Below, one piece after another: positions 13,638 to 35,884 of a DNA stretch of 64,000 nt. The stretch comes from Alphaproteobacteria bacterium (GTDB taxonomy: Bacteria; Pseudomonadota; Alphaproteobacteria; JANQMY01). Location of the stretch: the NCBI GenBank assembly GCA_028289425.1, contig JANQPL010000004.1, positions 1 through 64,000 on the forward strand, given 5' to 3'. Made by a program: the position numbers and the translations under genes. Position 1 is the stretch's first letter. Every line of letters starts with the position of its first letter. The notes below the pieces were generated by a model. That model had not been told where the DNA came from and ran no database searches. It saw only the letters and a program-made list of their open reading frames with translations.

Positions 13638-15947
13638 CTATTTCGGGTGGTCGATCTGCCGAAGGGCGCTGCAGATAAGGTCCGGCATTTCCTTCCGGTA
13701 GTAGGGCAAGATTTCGCCGATGAAGCCGAGTGTCTCATAAGGGGCAACTTCGAGGAGTTGTTTCTGCGCCTGTTTGGCGGCGTCTAGGTCGCCCAAATAA
13801 ACGGAACTTGCGGCCAGGATGCGCCAGCTTGCCGTAAATCTGGGATTCTCGGCGGCAGCGATGCGTGCCCATTTTGCTGCCCCTTCAAAGTCTTCCAATT
13901 GGAACAAGGCACAGGCGCGTCCCGAATGGACGATGTAACTTGAGGGATCCAGCGGGCTAAGCCGTTCGGCCTTGTCGAAATCTTCAAGAGCAGCGGCCCC
14001 ATCGCCGTAATACATGCGTATCCAACCGCTGGACGTCCACACAGTCAGATTGTTCGGATTGAGCTTGATGGCACGGTCGATCAGCGACAACGCCGCGGGC
14101 CAACTGCGCTCGAAATAGCCCACGACCGATGCGGCAATCGCTAAGACGAACGCGTCGTCACCGCCGTGCTCAACGGCCAAGTTGGCCAGCCGCCTCGTTT
14201 CCGCCATCCCTTCCGCCGAATGATAGTCCGCCGACTGAGTTCTAAGCCACGCCGCAAGACCCGCCGCCGGCGCGAAATGAGGGTCGAGCTCCAGAGACTT
14301 TTCGAGATATTTGATCGCTTCCGGAATGTTCGTTCCCCGCGCGCCGTAAGAAAACGGTAACGAGCGCAAGTAATAGTCATAAGCCTCCAATTCGGCAGGG
14401 GGCTTGCGCTGCGATCGTTCCAGTTCGATCAATCTGAGTTTCGGCTCCAAGATGGCGACCACTTGACCCGCCACATCGTCTTGCAGCTCAAAAACATCCG
14501 TTGGCGGACGGTCAAATCGTTGTGCCCAGATATAGCGGGCCGATTCCGCATCCACCAATTGGCAAGACACGCGCACCTTGTCCGGCGACCGGCTTACCGT
14601 GCCTTCCAGCAAATACCGCACACCCAGTTCCTGCGCCACTTTCTTGATGTCGATGGGCGCATTCTTGTACGTGAAGCTGGACGTGCGGGAGATGACGAAG
14701 ACCCAAGGCATGCAGGATAAGGCGGTGATGATGCCGTCTGTCATGCCATCGGCGAAATATTCCTCTTCGGCGATGCCGCTCATATTAGCGAAGGGCAACA
14801 CGGCGATGGACGGTTTGCCCGGATCGGACAAGGGAGAGGATTGAGACGGGCCCGGAACGGTTTGCGGCGGGGGACCTTCAACCCAATGATAGGCGCTGAC
14901 GGGGCGCGTAATGTTCTTGAGCGTCAGCCCGCCGTCCGAAACAAAAGCCGCGCCGTGCACTTCATCTAATTGGTCGAACATGTTTGACGAAATCAAAAGC
15001 CCGCCCGCCGCACAGGCCGATTTCAGTCGGGCTGCAATGTTGACCCCGTCGCCGAAGATATCGTCGCCCTCAATCAGAATGTCGCCGAGATTGATGCCGA
15101 CCCGCAATTCGATCTGCGGCATGAAATCCGTATCGGTCTCGATCTTCCGCATGCGCTCTTGCACAGATATGGCAGCGGCCACCGCCTGATTGGCGCTTGA
15201 GAACTCGACGATCATGCCGTCTAGGGACGACTTGATGATCCGGCCGCCTGTTTCGACAAAGGTGGGTTCCCACATTTCACTGCGCAACGTACGCAGCGCG
15301 TTTACGGCTTTGATCTCATCGGCGCCGATCAATCGGCTGTAATCGGCCACATCGGCCGACAGGATCGCCGACAGCCGTCTTTGTATGCCGGGCCGCTTGA
15401 CCTCGTCTTCGGGCTTGGCCGCACCTGTAGTCCCCTCAGACGCTCCGGCCCCGACCCGCGCGCGGACAAGCAAAGCTTCCGCTTTCGCCCGGGTTTCTTG
15501 GCGCTGGGCATTAAGCCATGTTTGAAAGTCGGGCAAATCGGGAAAGTCGATGCCTTCAAGAAACGCCGACTTGCCGTCGACAATGGCGCGGGCCACCGGC
15601 TCGAGGTCCCGCCGGCTTACTTCCGTTGACTGGGCAGCTCCGACCAGATCCAGATAGTCGATCCGCATATTATCGACATTTATCTGAACCGATTGCCGGT
15701 CGGCAACTACACGCTCCGTATCGGGTTCATTCAGGAGCGGGCGCAGCTTGCTCAAGCTCCAACGCAAGGCACCCCGTGGATCGTCCGGAATGTGCCATAG
15801 CAATGCGCAAAGATCTTCCCGCCTGAAACGCTTCCCCGAAAGGGCCAAATACGCCAATAAGGCACGCGTCTTTTTGGACGGCGGAAGCGCAAGTTCCTCG
15901 CCGTTTTTGGACAAACTCATCTTGCCAAGGAGGCGTAACTCAAGCAC
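13638..15947 (-). CDS. SARP-type regulator fused to class III adenylate cyclase and TPR sensor
   Basis: A 769-residue multidomain protein. Residues 1-170 form a winged helix plus BTAD-like region as in SARP regulators (LELRLLGKMSLSKNGEE, WSLSKLRPLL). Residues about 190-350 are a class III nucleotidyl cyclase with metal Asp199 and Asp243, adenine-site Lys239 and Asp300, and transition-state Asn303 and Arg307 (GDGVNIAARL), so cAMP synthesis is plausible; the usual Gly before Asp243 is Leu. Residues 378-510 hold the TolB/FlgO-like module (PSIAVLPFANMS, YLLEGTVSRS), then TPR helices follow to the end. No membrane segment is seen. It may both bind DNA and make cAMP; the signal is unknown. Confidence 0.85.
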   Translation of the reverse strand: MLELRLLGKMSLSKNGEELALPPSKKTRALLAYLALSGKRFRREDLCALLWHIPDDPRGALRWSLSKLRPLLNEPDTERVVADRQSVQINVDNMRIDYLDLVGAAQSTEVSRRDLEPVARAIVDGKSAFLEGIDFPDLPDFQTWLNAQRQETRAKAEALLVRARVGAGASEGTTGAAKPEDEVKRPGIQRRLSAILSADVADYSRLIGADEIKAVNALRTLRSEMWEPTFVETGGRIIKSSLDGMIVEFSSANQAVAAAISVQERMRKIETDTDFMPQIELRVGINLGDILIEGDDIFGDGVNIAARLKSACAAGGLLISSNMFDQLDEVHGAAFVSDGGLTLKNITRPVSAYHWVEGPPPQTVPGPSQSSPLSDPGKPSIAVLPFANMSGIAEEEYFADGMTDGIITALSCMPWVFVISRTSSFTYKNAPIDIKKVAQELGVRYLLEGTVSRSPDKVRVSCQLVDAESARYIWAQRFDRPPTDVFELQDDVAGQVVAILEPKLRLIELERSQRKPPAELEAYDYYLRSLPFSYGARGTNIPEAIKYLEKSLELDPHFAPAAGLAAWLRTQSADYHSAEGMAETRRLANLAVEHGGDDAFVLAIAASVVGYFERSWPAALSLIDRAIKLNPNNLTVWTSSGWIRMYYGDGAAALEDFDKAERLSPLDPSSYIVHSGRACALFQLEDFEGAAKWARIAAAENPRFTASWRILAASSVYLGDLDAAKQAQKQLLEVAPYETLGFIGEILPYYRKEMPDLICSALRQIDHPK

Positions 15948-16024: not shown

Positions 16025-18664
16025 TTAGCCGTCACAGGGCAGGCCGGCTTCCGCCAACAGGTCCAGAAATCGGTCAAAAGACGGCCCGTCGGCCGACAGA
16101 ATGCGGGCTTGGGACAGCAGGTGTTCCCGGGTAATGCCCGGCCAGGACGCCAGGCATTTAGCCAATTCGCCCTTGGCTTTTTTTGTCTCTCCCTTCGCCA
16201 CCAAGAGGGCGACTTGGGTCACATCGGGCCAATAGCCGGTTTCCGGGTATTGCCGCGCCTGGGCACACTCATATTCCGCGTTTTCATATTGCCCATCCAG
16301 CAAATAGGAAAAGGCGAGCCCCCAATGGGCGCTCCACAGAATTGGGTCTCTGGGCGAAAGGCGAATGACGCGCAAGAAATGTTCAGCCGCTTCGCCGGGC
16401 TGCCCCATACCCCGCAATGTAAGCGCCATGCCGAAATTTGCGTAGGCGAACCGGGGATTAAGATCGAGCGCCGTTTGAAACTCGAAAAGAGCGTCGGAAA
16501 GTTGGCGCCGGGACAGCAGAACCAGGCCCAACGCGTAGTGGCCAAGGGGATCGTAAAAGTCGAGCGATACCGCAAGGCGGCCGTGGCGCTCGCCCTCTTC
16601 AAGCCGGACGTCTGCATCGGTGGGATCGTTCACCAAAACGGATAGGTAGCGCAGGATGGCCAAATACGCATGTCCCCGATGGAACTTGGGATCCATTTGA
16701 ATGACTTGGCGGAAACAACTGTCGGCTTCGGCCAGGTCGTCCGGATTGAAGCGGGTCAGATGCCAAACCCCCTTCTGATAGATGTCCCACAATTCAAGGG
16801 AACCCGGCTTTTTGCTGACCGCCCGCTCTCGTTCCACATGGCTTAATTCCGGTTCGATGGCGCCAACGATTTTGTCGCTAATCTCGTCCTTAAAATCGAA
16901 GATGGCATCGAGAGAGCCATCGAATTGATCTGTCCAAACAAGCCGGCCGGTTTCGCCGTCGATAAGTTGCGCGCTCACCCGAATGCGCGGCCGCGCCAAG
17001 CGCACACTCCCTTCCAGAATGTAGTCCACATCCAGCTCGCTCGCGATGAGCTGTGTGTTGGCCGCACGGTCCTGATAGGCAAAGCTTGAGTCCCGGGCAA
17101 CCACATCGAACCAGCGAAACTTTGTCAGCTCCGTGATTAAATCATCGGCCATGCCCTGACCAATATAGTCCTGGGTCGGATCACCGGACAGGTTGGCGAA
17201 CGGCAAAACAGCGACACAGGGACGCTTGATCTCTTTAACGGTCTCCATCGACTCGACCGCGGGTAATTCGTGATCGGCAGGCGACCATCCATATGAGGTC
17301 ACGGAGGTGGCGAAATCGGAGAAATTCAACTCGCCGATCTTGCCGAACGCCGTTTTCAGAGTATCCCCAAGTTCGGCATGGACGTCCGACGAAATCACCA
17401 CACCGCCCACATGGCAGAGTTTCTGCAAGGCATCGGCAATCGCCAAAGGTGCTCCCAGCACGTCATTGTCGACAAAAAGCACGGGCCCCATATGGACACC
17501 AATGCGCTGCTTTATGGGCGCCTGCAAGCCAACACGGCCATCCTCCGTGAGCGCTTCCTGCATGGCCATGCCGGCTTTGACTGCCTTTTGCGGTTCCTCA
17601 AAACCGGCGATCACGCCGTCCCCCGCCGTGGAGAGGACTCTGCCGCCATGGTTTTGAATCTGCGGGTCCCAAACTTTTTCGCGTAACGTCCGAAGCGCGC
17701 CAATGGTGCCGGTTTCGTCGGCCCCCATCAGCTTGCTAAACCCGGCAACATCGGCCGCCAATACGGTCGTCGTCCTTCGCATGGGTTCGCGCGCGACCGC
17801 CTGTTCAACCGCGACAGCAAATTGCTCAACGTCGGCGCTGCCTTCTTCGTTGAAGCGCTCCCATTCGTTGAGCAGCCATTCTTCCGCATGCGGCCCTTCT
17901 TGGCGCAGCAAACCGCGCGCTACCGTCAAATGAGCCGAGGCCTCATCTTTCCGACTGCAGCGCAGGAGCAGATGCAGAAGATCGGCCTGGGCTCGACGAT
18001 TGTGAGGTTCCAGTTTTGCGCGCTTGCGGGCGTAAGGCAGCGCGTCATGGGGCGCAGCTTCCAGCCTGGTGACCAGGCTTTGGAGCAGCTTTCCGTAAAG
18101 TAGTTCAGCTTCGGCCAGTTCGGAAACGCGCCACGCTTCGAATTCCGGTTGATCGGGAAGCTCGAGGCCGCTGAACAAGGGACCTCTGAAGTCTCGTTCC
18201 GTTTCCACCAATTCTTCCAAGTCGCAGTCTTGAGGCCGGCGCAAGCGATTCTTGGCCAGCAAAATGTCAATGCGGCCCGTGCCGGTCTCGAGCTTGACGG
18301 ATTCGCGGTCCGCCACGACCCGCCAGGTTTCGTTTTCTGCGAGCCCGCCCTTTTCGAAGACATTTCGTAGCCGGCTTAGCGCCCACCGAAGTGAGCCCTT
18401 CGGATCATCTGAGTCCGCCCATAAGAGCGTGCATAAACGCGCGCGGCGGTGCTGCCGCCCCGTTACGGCGAGATAGGCCAACAGCGCGCGCACTTTGCGC
18501 GAAGGCGGCAGTTCGATTTCTTCGCCATTCTGCCGCAGGCGAAAATCCCCTAGCGTTTGGAGTTCCAGCACGGGTTGCACCTTAAAGTGAGCCTCCGGCC
18601 CTATGTCATCGCCGGTGTCTTCACCAGCGCTTATTTTGACCGATCGCCGAAGCGATGGAAACAT
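16025..18664 (-). CDS. SARP-type regulator with degenerate cyclase domain and TPR sensor
   Basis: An 879-residue relative of the neighbouring cyclase from the ATG at 18664; an in-frame ATG at 18748 would overlap the divergent hydratase start. A SARP winged helix and full BTAD helices are followed by a cyclase-like domain near 300-440, the TolB/FlgO-like module (CVAVLPFANLSGDPTQ, DYILEGSVRLA) and TPRs. The two metal Asp (305, 349) remain, but the adenine Lys is Ser345, the adenine Asp is Ala405, and the transition-state Asn and Arg are Ala408 and Ala412 (LGAPLAIADAL). The domain is therefore probably a non-catalytic nucleotide or partner sensor. It lies directly upstream of the active homologue on the same strand. 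Confidence 0.83.
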   Translation of the reverse strand: MFPSLRRSVKISAGEDTGDDIGPEAHFKVQPVLELQTLGDFRLRQNGEEIELPPSRKVRALLAYLAVTGRQHRRARLCTLLWADSDDPKGSLRWALSRLRNVFEKGGLAENETWRVVADRESVKLETGTGRIDILLAKNRLRRPQDCDLEELVETERDFRGPLFSGLELPDQPEFEAWRVSELAEAELLYGKLLQSLVTRLEAAPHDALPYARKRAKLEPHNRRAQADLLHLLLRCSRKDEASAHLTVARGLLRQEGPHAEEWLLNEWERFNEEGSADVEQFAVAVEQAVAREPMRRTTTVLAADVAGFSKLMGADETGTIGALRTLREKVWDPQIQNHGGRVLSTAGDGVIAGFEEPQKAVKAGMAMQEALTEDGRVGLQAPIKQRIGVHMGPVLFVDNDVLGAPLAIADALQKLCHVGGVVISSDVHAELGDTLKTAFGKIGELNFSDFATSVTSYGWSPADHELPAVESMETVKEIKRPCVAVLPFANLSGDPTQDYIGQGMADDLITELTKFRWFDVVARDSSFAYQDRAANTQLIASELDVDYILEGSVRLARPRIRVSAQLIDGETGRLVWTDQFDGSLDAIFDFKDEISDKIVGAIEPELSHVERERAVSKKPGSLELWDIYQKGVWHLTRFNPDDLAEADSCFRQVIQMDPKFHRGHAYLAILRYLSVLVNDPTDADVRLEEGERHGRLAVSLDFYDPLGHYALGLVLLSRRQLSDALFEFQTALDLNPRFAYANFGMALTLRGMGQPGEAAEHFLRVIRLSPRDPILWSAHWGLAFSYLLDGQYENAEYECAQARQYPETGYWPDVTQVALLVAKGETKKAKGELAKCLASWPGITREHLLSQARILSADGPSFDRFLDLLAEAGLPCDG

Positions 18665-18741
18665 AAGGGATCGTCTGGCCAACACATCTAAGTCGCCTAT
18701 ACTTAGCGCAAAATTGCAACAGATCGTACAGGGAGGTGGAC

Positions 18742-19557
18742 ATGTCATCGTCTTACAAGGAAATAATCTACGAAGTTGAAGACCCTGTGGCCGTAATTCG
18801 CCTGAATCGGCCGGACCGGTTGAATGCCATCACATACACAATGCTCGCGGAAATTCGCGATGCCATCGATAAGTCCGCCGAAGACAGCCAAGTCGTGGGA
18901 ATTGTCATAACAGGCGAAGGACGCGGGTTTTGTGCGGGGCTTGATGCTGAGGTGCTGGCGGCGACGGCCTCCGCCGGGAAGACCACGAGCAGCCAAGACA
19001 CCGCTCAACGGAACGATGTCCCCGGCATGTTCACCTATCTTCTGAAAGTGCCCAAACCCATTATCGCGGCCGTGAATGGCGTCGCCGCCGGTGGTGGCTT
19101 CGTTTTGCCCGCCATGTCCGATGTGCGCTTTGCCTCGACCGAGGCGGCCTTCACCACCGTTTTCTCCAAACGAGGGCTGATCGCGGAACACGGCTTGAGC
19201 TGGATCATGCCGCGCTTGATGGGGCCCGGCCGCGCCCTGGATCTGCTCTGGACGTCGCGGAAGATCGGGGCCGAAGAAGCACTGCGTTGGGGCCTTGTTG
19301 AATATGTGGTGCCGCACGACCAGCTGCTTCAGGCCGCAAAGGACTATGTGATCAATCTGGCGCAATCCGTGGCGCCATCGTCGTTGGCTGAAACGAAACG
19401 GCTGCTTTATCACCATATGGGCATCGAGTATCAGCCGGCGCTCGAAGAAACCCAGGTCGCGATGGAGGAAAGCCTCACTCGCGTCGATGCAACGGAAGGG
19501 GTTCAATCGTTCATTGAGCGGCGGCCTCCGGATTTTCCGCGGCTGGGAGGCAAGTAA
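18742..19557 (+). CDS. Enoyl-CoA hydratase/isomerase family protein
   Basis: A 271-residue crotonase-fold enzyme. ITGEGRGFCAGLDAEVLA gives one half of the oxyanion hole and NGVAAGGGFVLPAMSDVRFA the other; the catalytic region reads FTTVFSKRGLIAEHGLSW, where a Glu (in AEHG) sits in the usual acid/base area. The ATG at 18742 is 5 bases after GGGAGG; a GTG at 18736 lies inside that site and is rejected. It may act in fatty-acid or aromatic-acid beta-oxidation. It diverges from the degenerate cyclase gene across a short shared promoter region. Confidence 0.85.
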   Translation: MSSSYKEIIYEVEDPVAVIRLNRPDRLNAITYTMLAEIRDAIDKSAEDSQVVGIVITGEGRGFCAGLDAEVLAATASAGKTTSSQDTAQRNDVPGMFTYLLKVPKPIIAAVNGVAAGGGFVLPAMSDVRFASTEAAFTTVFSKRGLIAEHGLSWIMPRLMGPGRALDLLWTSRKIGAEEALRWGLVEYVVPHDQLLQAAKDYVINLAQSVAPSSLAETKRLLYHHMGIEYQPALEETQVAMEESLTRVDATEGVQSFIERRPPDFPRLGGK

Positions 19558-20194: not shown

Positions 20195-20992
20195 TCAGCG
20201 GCCCTTGAATTCGGGCGTTCGTTTTTCCAGGAACGCCTTCATGCCCTCGGCGGCGTCCTCGCTCCGGAACAGCGGCAAAAGCTGCAAATAGACGTGATGC
20301 ACATGCTCGGTGAACGGTTCGTTCATGCCCATGCGCATCATGCGCTTTGACGCCTGCACGGCCAGGGGCGCATTGTCGGCGATCTCCTTGGCGACCATGC
20401 GCGCTTCGTTCATGAGTTCCTGGGTCGGGACCACTTTCGACGCAAGCCCTTCTGCCACGCATTCTTCTGCGCTGAGTGTGCGGCCTGTGAAGATGATTTC
20501 CGCCGCCTTGGACCAGCCCAGCATGCGGGGCAGATACCATGTGCCGCCGGATTCCGGCACCACGCCCCGTTTGGTAAACGCCGCGGCCATTTTTGCACTT
20601 TCGGCCATGATCCGGATATCGCAACCAAGCGCCGTATCCATGCCATAGCCGGCAGCCCCACCGTTCAGTGCACAGATGGTTGGCGTGTCCATGTTATGCA
20701 AAACGGTTGGCGGTGTGTTCCGCAGGTCTAGATTCTGAGCGCCCACACTGTTGCCCGAGATGCCCTGTCCTTTGGTTGCGGTTTCCAGATTGAGACCGGC
20801 GCAGAAGGCGCGGCCCTCGCCCGTCAAGATCACCGCGCGCACATCCGGGTCCGCGTCCGCCTTCAGCAAAAGCTCCGTAAGCCGATCCAACATGGGCCCG
20901 GAAATCGTGTTCATGCGTTCGGGCGCATTCAGTGTGATCGTTGCGATGTTGTCTTCCACCGCGTAGAGAACTTCGTTTTTTGCATCGGACAT
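20195..20992 (-). CDS. Enoyl-CoA hydratase/isomerase family protein
   Basis: A 265-residue crotonase-fold enzyme starting MSDAKNEVLYAVEDN, with GGGAGG 7 bases upstream of the ATG; the longer frame to 21052 lacks a site. TLNAPERMNTISGPML, LTGEGRAFCAGLNLET and NGGAAGYGMDTALGCDIRIM form the CoA and oxyanion sites, and FTKRGVVPESGGTWYLPR carries a Glu in the standard acid/base position. It likely acts in acyl-CoA degradation. It diverges from the aldehyde dehydrogenase gene. Confidence 0.87.
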   Translation of the reverse strand: MSDAKNEVLYAVEDNIATITLNAPERMNTISGPMLDRLTELLLKADADPDVRAVILTGEGRAFCAGLNLETATKGQGISGNSVGAQNLDLRNTPPTVLHNMDTPTICALNGGAAGYGMDTALGCDIRIMAESAKMAAAFTKRGVVPESGGTWYLPRMLGWSKAAEIIFTGRTLSAEECVAEGLASKVVPTQELMNEARMVAKEIADNAPLAVQASKRMMRMGMNEPFTEHVHHVYLQLLPLFRSEDAAEGMKAFLEKRTPEFKGR

Positions 20993-21099
20993 GTGCTGCC
21001 TCCCAATTCCTGGTGCCTGTTGGGGCGCAGCATAGCTTGGGTGACCGGCCATGGAAACACGTGATACATCTTGCCGGTCTGCCCCTACAAAACGAGCGC

Positions 21100-34270: not shown

Positions 34271-35884
34271 TCAACTTTGAGGTAACCCCAGAGCAGAAAA
34301 TGTCTCCAGCACCATCTCTAAGTATTGCGGATGAAGTGGTCCGAGGCTGGCTGTTACATAAGATGCTGTTAGATTGGGATTCAACAGCAGCGCTTCTTCG
34401 AATTGTTTATCAGCCTCGTCGCGCTTGCCGGTCCGAAAGAGAGCGAAGGCAAGCGACAGGTGCGGCCAAAATTGGTCCCCTTTTTGCTGTGTTGCCATTC
34501 GGGCATCTGCGATTCCGGATTCGAACTGACTCGTTACGTTGTACGCCCAACCTCGCATGTTGAGGAAGGACCACAATTGATCATCATGCGGACTAAGGAG
34601 GATAGCCATCGTGAACTGCGAGATCGACTCTTCTGCATAACCCGCCCAATAAAGAGCGGTGCCAAGACCGTAGTAGGCCGAAGCAGAACTAGGATTGAGC
34701 TCGATCGCTTTTCTAAAAGCCGCGATAGCACGACCGCTGTAAGCCCCGCCTAAAAGCATGCACACGCGGCCGAGGGCAAATTGGTTTAGGTCGTCGCGGT
34801 CGTCACACTCAAGCGCCTTCTCCGCATGACGCAACCCCTCTTTTATGGTTTCCGAGACATCCCCTGCTTGGCCCATTAACACTCTGCTATACGCAATCAG
34901 CGCCAGGGCCGCATAGGCGTTGCCAAACTCCGGCGCGCGGTCGATGGCGGATTGAAACAATTGTTCCCCTTCCGCCAGATCCTCTGTGGAATGCCTGTAA
35001 AGATGCCACATTCCACGCTGGTAAAGCTCCCAGGCGTCCAAGTTTGGAGACTGTTTTCGGTGTGCCTTTTGTCGTTCGCTACCGGCTAATTCGGCGCACG
35101 TTTCGGCAATAATCGCGGCCGATAGGTCGTCCTGCAAATCGAAGATATCGATGAGTTTCCGATCATAACGCTCGGCCCATATGTGGCTGTCCGTTTCGGC
35201 ATCGATCAATTGTGCGTTCACCCGGATGCGGTCGCCGGCCTTTCGAACGCTGCCCTCAAGCAGGTATTGCACGCCCAACTCTCGGCCGATTCGTGTCACG
35301 TTTCTGGATTGATGCTTATAGGCAAATGTGGAGTTTCGCGCGATCACGAACATCCAGCGAATGCGCGACAGCAAGGAGATGATGTCTTCAGTTAAACCGT
35401 CAGAGAAGAATTCCTGTGTTGGATCCTCCGACATATTTTCAAAGGGAAGAACGGCGATCGACGGCTTGTCGGGCAACACCAAAGCCTCCATCTTGGGCTC
35501 CGGATTTTGCTTTGGCGGAGCTGCACGCTGGCCGACGGCGGAGACCGGATTGTCATCAACGGGAAGTACTTTCACCTCGCCGATGAATCTGAAACCCTTT
35601 CCATGAATTGTGCGGATAAGCCGTTGCGAACGGCCGTCGTCGCCGATCGCTTTTCGGGCGGCCTTGATCTGACTACTGAGCGCCGAGTCCGACACCACGC
35701 GCCTCTGCCACACCTGCTCTATAATTTCGTCCTTGCTGACAAATCGATCATGGTTCTCCACCAGGAAGCACAGCAGGCTGAATACCAAGGGCTCGATCGA
35801 TTGGGCTTGACCATTGACGTGAAGCTCTAAGGTCTGGCGATCAAGTCGGCAGTTTCCAAACAGGTAAGCTCTCACACTTTCCAT
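34271..35884 (-). CDS. OmpR-type winged-helix regulator with TolB-like module and TPRs (CadC-like)
   Basis: A 537-residue protein. Residues 1-105 are an OmpR/CadC-type DNA-binding domain (AYLFGNCRLDRQTLEL, SLLCFLVENHDRFVSKDEII, SALSSQIKAARKAIGDDG, TIHGKGFRFIGEV). No membrane segment is seen, unlike CadC. Residues about 140-280 are the same TolB/FlgO-like module as in the two SARP-cyclases (SIAVLPFENMSEDPTQEFF, YLLEGSVRKAGDRIRV, WAERYDRKL), and TPR repeats follow. The signal is unknown. Base composition looks lower in GC than its neighbours, and it lies beside a relic of a HerA gene, hinting at insertion. Confidence 0.85.
   Translation of the reverse strand: MESVRAYLFGNCRLDRQTLELHVNGQAQSIEPLVFSLLCFLVENHDRFVSKDEIIEQVWQRRVVSDSALSSQIKAARKAIGDDGRSQRLIRTIHGKGFRFIGEVKVLPVDDNPVSAVGQRAAPPKQNPEPKMEALVLPDKPSIAVLPFENMSEDPTQEFFSDGLTEDIISLLSRIRWMFVIARNSTFAYKHQSRNVTRIGRELGVQYLLEGSVRKAGDRIRVNAQLIDAETDSHIWAERYDRKLIDIFDLQDDLSAAIIAETCAELAGSERQKAHRKQSPNLDAWELYQRGMWHLYRHSTEDLAEGEQLFQSAIDRAPEFGNAYAALALIAYSRVLMGQAGDVSETIKEGLRHAEKALECDDRDDLNQFALGRVCMLLGGAYSGRAIAAFRKAIELNPSSASAYYGLGTALYWAGYAEESISQFTMAILLSPHDDQLWSFLNMRGWAYNVTSQFESGIADARMATQQKGDQFWPHLSLAFALFRTGKRDEADKQFEEALLLNPNLTASYVTASLGPLHPQYLEMVLETFSALGLPQS

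Follow-up and report, generated by a model that had tools for sequence, protein, structure and literature searches.

Two adjacent, putatively SARP-type proteins of an alphaproteobacterium carry class III cyclase domains with complementary changes in the active site

In mammalian transmembrane adenylyl cyclases, the catalytic residues are divided between two domains: C1 carries the metal-binding Asp residues and the R-V-G motif with its Arg, and C2 carries Lys, Asp, Asn, Arg and a loop Lys. Split-site heterodimers of animals and fungi are thought to have descended from bacterial homodimers. In soluble guanylate cyclase (sGC), key residues are split between the alpha and beta subunits, and for this reason the homodimers are inactive (PMC3591389, which also covers the C1/C2 arrangement). 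In the fungal rhodopsin guanylyl cyclase NeoR/RGC1, there is one active site, to which one subunit contributes the metal Asp residues and the other the base-recognizing residues (PMC12264004). Cyclase pairs with complementary defects are known from animal and fungal enzymes, and a search of the literature found no report of such a pair in bacteria. If such a pair occurs naturally in a bacterium, it would show the intermediate state and lend itself to a direct test with two small domains.

The DNA analyzed here (the window, 64,000 nucleotides, i.e. positions 1 to 64,000 of contig JANQPL010000004.1 of an alphaproteobacterium) encodes two paralogous proteins with a putative SARP wHTH region, a class III cyclase homology domain (CHD), a TolB/FlgO-like domain and a TPR region, in this order. 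P0002 (16025..18748, minus strand; 907 aa from the ATG at 18748) has a SARP-type winged helix and BTAD-like region at about residues 60–300 (17849..18571), a degenerate cyclase domain (17285..17791), a TolB/FlgO/CsgG-like domain (16799..17236) and a TPR region (16028..16798). P0001 (13638..15947; 769 aa, GTG start), with a shortened BTAD region and a cyclase domain at 14877..15395, lies 77 bases downstream on the same strand. The Pfam scan gave no SARP/BTAD match in either protein; the SARP assignment is based on relatives found by tblastn, on home-made profiles and on the way in which similar proteins encoded on plasmids are annotated ('BTAD domain-containing putative transcriptional regulator'), and DNA binding is a prediction. 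The N-termini are homologous to those of many SARP-TolB-TPR proteins, and relatives of the SARP region of P0002 were recovered, with the home-made profile and tblastn, in 20 of the 385 genomes searched. Two other proteins touch on this architecture: a third relative in the window (34271-35884, minus strand) combines an OmpR-type winged helix with TolB-like and TPR regions and has no cyclase domain, and elsewhere in the same genome (L033, 2360-4015) a SARP domain is joined to a C-terminal region that, judged from its sequence, resembles an alpha/beta hydrolase.

Matches to profiles and to PDB entries give good support for placing both domains in the cyclase fold family, with P0002 alone below the Pfam cut-off. 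Against PF00211 (curated cut-off 21.9 bits), P0001 scored 28 bits and P0002 18.2 bits as the 907-aa protein or 22 bits in the genome scan; a home-made profile matched both domains clearly. The closest solved domain to both is PDB 3mr7, an adenylate/guanylate cyclase/hydrolase (E = 3.6e-37 for P0001 and 2.1e-22 for P0002), which, unlike either of them, lacks none of the residues of the set. The PDB-based alignments of both domains to this structure leave the residue slots unambiguous. AlphaFold models of the two full-length proteins, built from a 4-row alignment, reached mean pLDDT values of 55 and 57, which is insufficient for a fold search; the predicted secondary structure agrees only loosely with the cyclase fold.

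In the 907-aa numbering, P0002 keeps both metal-binding Asp residues (Asp333 and Asp377), Gly336, Gly376, Arg415 and the adenine-recognizing Asp429, and has lost Lys (Ser373), the transition-state residues Asn and Arg (Ala436 and Ala440; codons 17429..17443) and the conserved phosphate-loop Lys (Ser477). With Lys, Asn and Arg absent, and Asp429, Asp333 and Asp377 present, P0002 falls outside the residue definition of an active homodimeric class III cyclase. P0001 fits this definition, keeping all six canonical catalytic residues (Lys239, Asp296, Asn303, Arg307 and the metal-binding Asp199 and Asp243) as well as Arg282 and Lys344, and has lost two glycines of the metal half, namely that of the D-x-x-G motif (Asp202) and the one preceding the second metal Asp (Leu242, codon 15222..15224; Met in the ortholog). 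In class III cyclases, the base-selecting Asp lies seven residues before Asn (e.g. Asp365, Asn372 and Arg376 of Rv1625c), a position occupied by Asp296 of P0001 and Asp429 of P0002. The Lys344 slot presumably corresponds, by position, to Lys1065 of mammalian C2.

The original prediction, in which P0002 began at the ATG at 18664, set Ser345, Ala405, Ala408 and Ala412 against Lys239, Asp300, Asn303 and Arg307 of an 'intact' paralogue. The letters are right in every case (373, 433, 436 and 440 in the longer frame), and both metal Asp residues are present in P0002 as stated. Alignment with class III cyclases placed the Lys, Asn and Arg slots as named, but the base-selecting Asp lies elsewhere and is kept in both proteins: Asp300/Ala405, named among the key residues, is the Asp of G-D-x-V-N, three residues before Asn. 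Nor can P0001 be called intact, given Leu242 and Asp202; these glycine losses, and Ser477 of P0002 at the Lys344 slot, had been overlooked. The heterodimer suggested in the same prediction is strengthened because P0001 has a reciprocal defect of its own, and the interpretation as a whole is partly supported.

To gauge how rare these losses are, cyclase domains were gathered from the 385 genomes of the class and from the 30 best Pfam matches in a phylum-wide draw, and the key slots were read from one profile alignment, yielding 201 distinct class III domains, 197 of them outside the pair and its orthologs. Conservation across the 201 domains was 196 for the first metal Asp, 198 for the second, 158 for Lys, 166 for the base Asp, 190 for Asn, 195 for Arg and 195 for the Gly preceding the second metal Asp. 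Loss of Lys, which is missing from 43 of the 201 domains, is thus common and was rejected as key evidence. Loss of Gly202 was likewise rejected as strong evidence, the residue not being Gly in 28 of the 201 domains, otherwise complete ones included, so that only Gly242 counts as such in P0001. What is rare is that Asn and Arg are lost together while the two metal Asp residues remain, a combination found in P0002 and its ortholog and in none of the 197 background domains (0/197). Gly242 is present in all 185 background domains in which both metal Asp residues, Asn and Arg are intact (185/185); the only four other domains without it are SARP-fused and have lost other catalytic residues too.

The comparison was also made over all 18 columns conserved in at least 90% of 166 background domains, which avoids hand-picked sites. 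In P0001 as in its ortholog, deviations are confined to two of the 18 columns, namely the glycines next to the metal Asp residues (G202, replaced by Asp, and G242, replaced by Leu or Met). P0002 shares with its ortholog deviations at only four columns, V302, N303, R307 and K344, the ortholog having one further private change. The half-sites thus appear to be damaged in a complementary fashion, P0001 in the metal half at the glycines (both metal Asp residues stay) and P0002 in the substrate/transition-state half. Because this reciprocity was noticed post hoc and the two orthologous pairs represent one evolutionary event, no p-value is given; the pair is carried by two species only, so that each pattern amounts to one evolutionary observation.

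The second species is represented by the only same-genus relative in the searched set (G001), with the matching contig belonging to the MAG 'Alphaproteobacteria bacterium isolate PL25b_bin.64'; a scan of the whole collection gave this sister-species MAG as the sole match. It keeps both genes, their order, the flanking genes and both residue patterns, with protein identities of 71% and 79% for the pair. The cyclase domain is 78% identical between species in P0001 vs. 63% in P0002, in which every other folded domain is better conserved (66% to 91%, with 91% for the TolB-like domain and 77% for the TPR region). The NG86 dN/dS ratio is about 0.12 for the cyclase domain of P0002 and about 0.075 for that of P0001, values which, with dS near saturation, are to be read only as well below 1. 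The replaced positions of P0002 vary between the species (Ser/Ala, Ala/Thr and Ala/Glu), and the loop Lys slot is Ser in both. In P0002, the fold and the metal half are conserved, and the substrate half has escaped the constraint that is usual for it.

The hypothesis that best fits this pattern, unproven and somewhat short of probable, is that P0002 and P0001 form one heterodimeric class III nucleotidyl cyclase with a single composite site. Its basis is the residue pattern, the near-unique half-losses, the fact that another species has the same pattern and the same order of genes, the shared strand and the 77-base gap; from these we infer co-transcription, heterodimerization and activity of the two proteins. 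P0002 would supply the metal half, with Asp333 and Asp377 for two metal ions, intact flanking glycines and Arg415. P0001 would supply base recognition, Lys239 and Asp296 holding ATP, and would contribute Asn303, Arg307 and Lys344 for the phosphates and the transition state; the Lys/Asp combination would point to ATP rather than GTP as the substrate. The second, pseudo-symmetric site, composed of the altered metal half of P0001 and the dead substrate half of P0002, would be non-catalytic or allosteric and, conjecturally, the state of the cyclase could be coupled to how the SARP domains at the N-termini bind DNA. The fuller proposal of an obligate heterodimeric bacterial cyclase made of two adjacent SARP-type factors, with both cyclase output and promoter binding dependent on pairing, is one that we consider somewhat unlikely.

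One of the closest described systems is mammalian transmembrane adenylyl cyclase, with P0002 in the C1 role and P0001 in the C2 role, whereby one composite site would result. The differences are that P0002 and P0001 are encoded by two separate bacterial genes, are soluble and are fused to SARP, TolB-like and TPR regions, and that P0001 still keeps both metal Asp residues. Like P0001 and P0002, the sGC alpha and beta subunits are products of two genes; each sGC subunit lacks one half-site, as is proposed for this pair, and sGC homodimers are inactive (PMC3591389); unlike sGC, P0001 and P0002 have no haem domain, and Lys/Asp would favor ATP. NeoR/RGC1 is an asymmetric heterodimer with one working site, as proposed for P0002/P0001 (PMC12264004), but NeoR keeps all essential residues, and NeoR/RGC1 is a membrane photoreceptor of a eukaryote. 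The alphaproteobacterial CHD-TolB-TPR cyclases, annotated as 'adenylate/guanylate cyclase domain-containing protein', e.g. on Microvirga and Bradyrhizobium plasmids, share the cyclase-TolB-TPR core with P0001/P0002 at 30–36% identity; in contrast to this pair, those without SARP have the complete D1/G/D2/N/R set (113/113), i.e. none is degenerate (0/113).

One point against the heterodimer is the frequent degeneracy of SARP-fused cyclase domains for which no partner is obvious. Defining degeneracy as a change in any of D1/G242/D2/N/R, 10 of the 14 SARP-fused domains are degenerate vs. 6 of the 187 others, a contrast biased upward because the SARP proteins had been selected for their SARP domain, whereas similarity to cyclases was the basis for collecting the others; with the window pair and its orthologs set aside, the count is 6 of 10. 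Fully degenerate domains, with the Asp, Lys, Asn and Arg slots changed, occur in SARP proteins of about 1320 aa from other families in two other genomes (L223, 2038-7093, and L224, 2883-6863), in L223 with an intact stand-alone cyclase gene immediately upstream. Given this frequent degeneracy, regulation without catalysis has to be taken seriously as an alternative: neither domain would make cyclic nucleotide, the cyclase domain would be a dimerization or nucleotide-sensing module controlling DNA binding, and the defects would be independent steps of the same decay, as is also suggested by the interspecies drift of the replaced P0002 positions. However, P0001 keeps every directly catalytic side chain and is under stronger constraint than P0002, and independent decay does not predict complementary damage; we judge this explanation somewhat unlikely, although it ranks next after the heterodimer. 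Degenerate cyclase domains in SARP-type regulators represent a wider pattern, for which no description was found in the literature searched; a search for SARP, TolB and cyclase in combination likewise returned nothing. Another neighboring cyclase/SARP pair was observed in L234 (2021-4894), where the gene directly after a stand-alone cyclase gene encodes a SARP-TolB protein that has no cyclase domain.

Since P0001 keeps both metal Asp residues, its homodimer could still be active. Conceivably, P0001 tolerates Leu242 and Asp202 and works as an active homodimeric adenylate cyclase, with P0002 as a regulatory pseudo-cyclase, the first option of the original prediction, that modulates it or competes for dimerization. 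All six canonical catalytic residues are in place, and unusual residues are sometimes tolerated: Ma1120, with Ala at the Asn slot, is active (PMC4215837), which shows that lack of Asn need not by itself abolish activity. This possibility nonetheless looks unlikely, because no complete domain (0/185) has anything other than Gly at position 242 and the four other exceptions are all broken elsewhere. For the Gly preceding the second metal Asp, we know of no substitution with a tested effect and of no experiment. That the P0002 cyclase domain is a decaying relic without a function of its own in a working SARP-TolB-TPR regulator, as its lowest conservation among the folded parts of the protein and the commonness of SARP-TolB-TPR regulators without a cyclase domain (which shows the module to be dispensable) might suggest, is very improbable given the dN/dS value, albeit with saturated dS, and the exact retention in both species of the metal-half residues and other structural invariants, a selective keeping unlike a relic.

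Both domains fall inside a large clade of canonical CHD-TolB-TPR cyclases, so that the losses are derived. Within it, the P0001 and P0002 cyclase domains are weakly sister, on long branches (SH-aLRT 88 in a large quick tree and 73/59 in a smaller, more careful one), and neither the SARP tree nor the TolB tree brings the two proteins together. A single tandem duplication of whole genes, although possible as the origin of the pair, is not supported by this combination of trees. A tandem array of four intact CHD-TolB-TPR genes was seen in one genome (L094, 1836-9151, genome G208).

The start of P0002 is uncertain. The longest frame begins at 18748, whereas the alignment to the sister species begins only near residues 54–60, and a start-capable codon is found at the first residue of V-L-E-L in both species and in P0001, being GTG in P0001, P0002 and the P0002 ortholog. 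The GTG at 18571 (residue 60) is the best-conserved candidate and may be the start; a start there would leave a 165-base divergent intergenic region up to the enoyl-CoA hydratase gene at 18736. In the promoter/terminator scan, no signal rose above that of shuffled sequences. The window contains two enoyl-CoA hydratase/isomerase genes, at 18736-19557 (plus strand) and 20195-21052 (minus strand). The former is divergent from P0002, an arrangement also present in the sister species, and is a possible target of the P0002 regulator.
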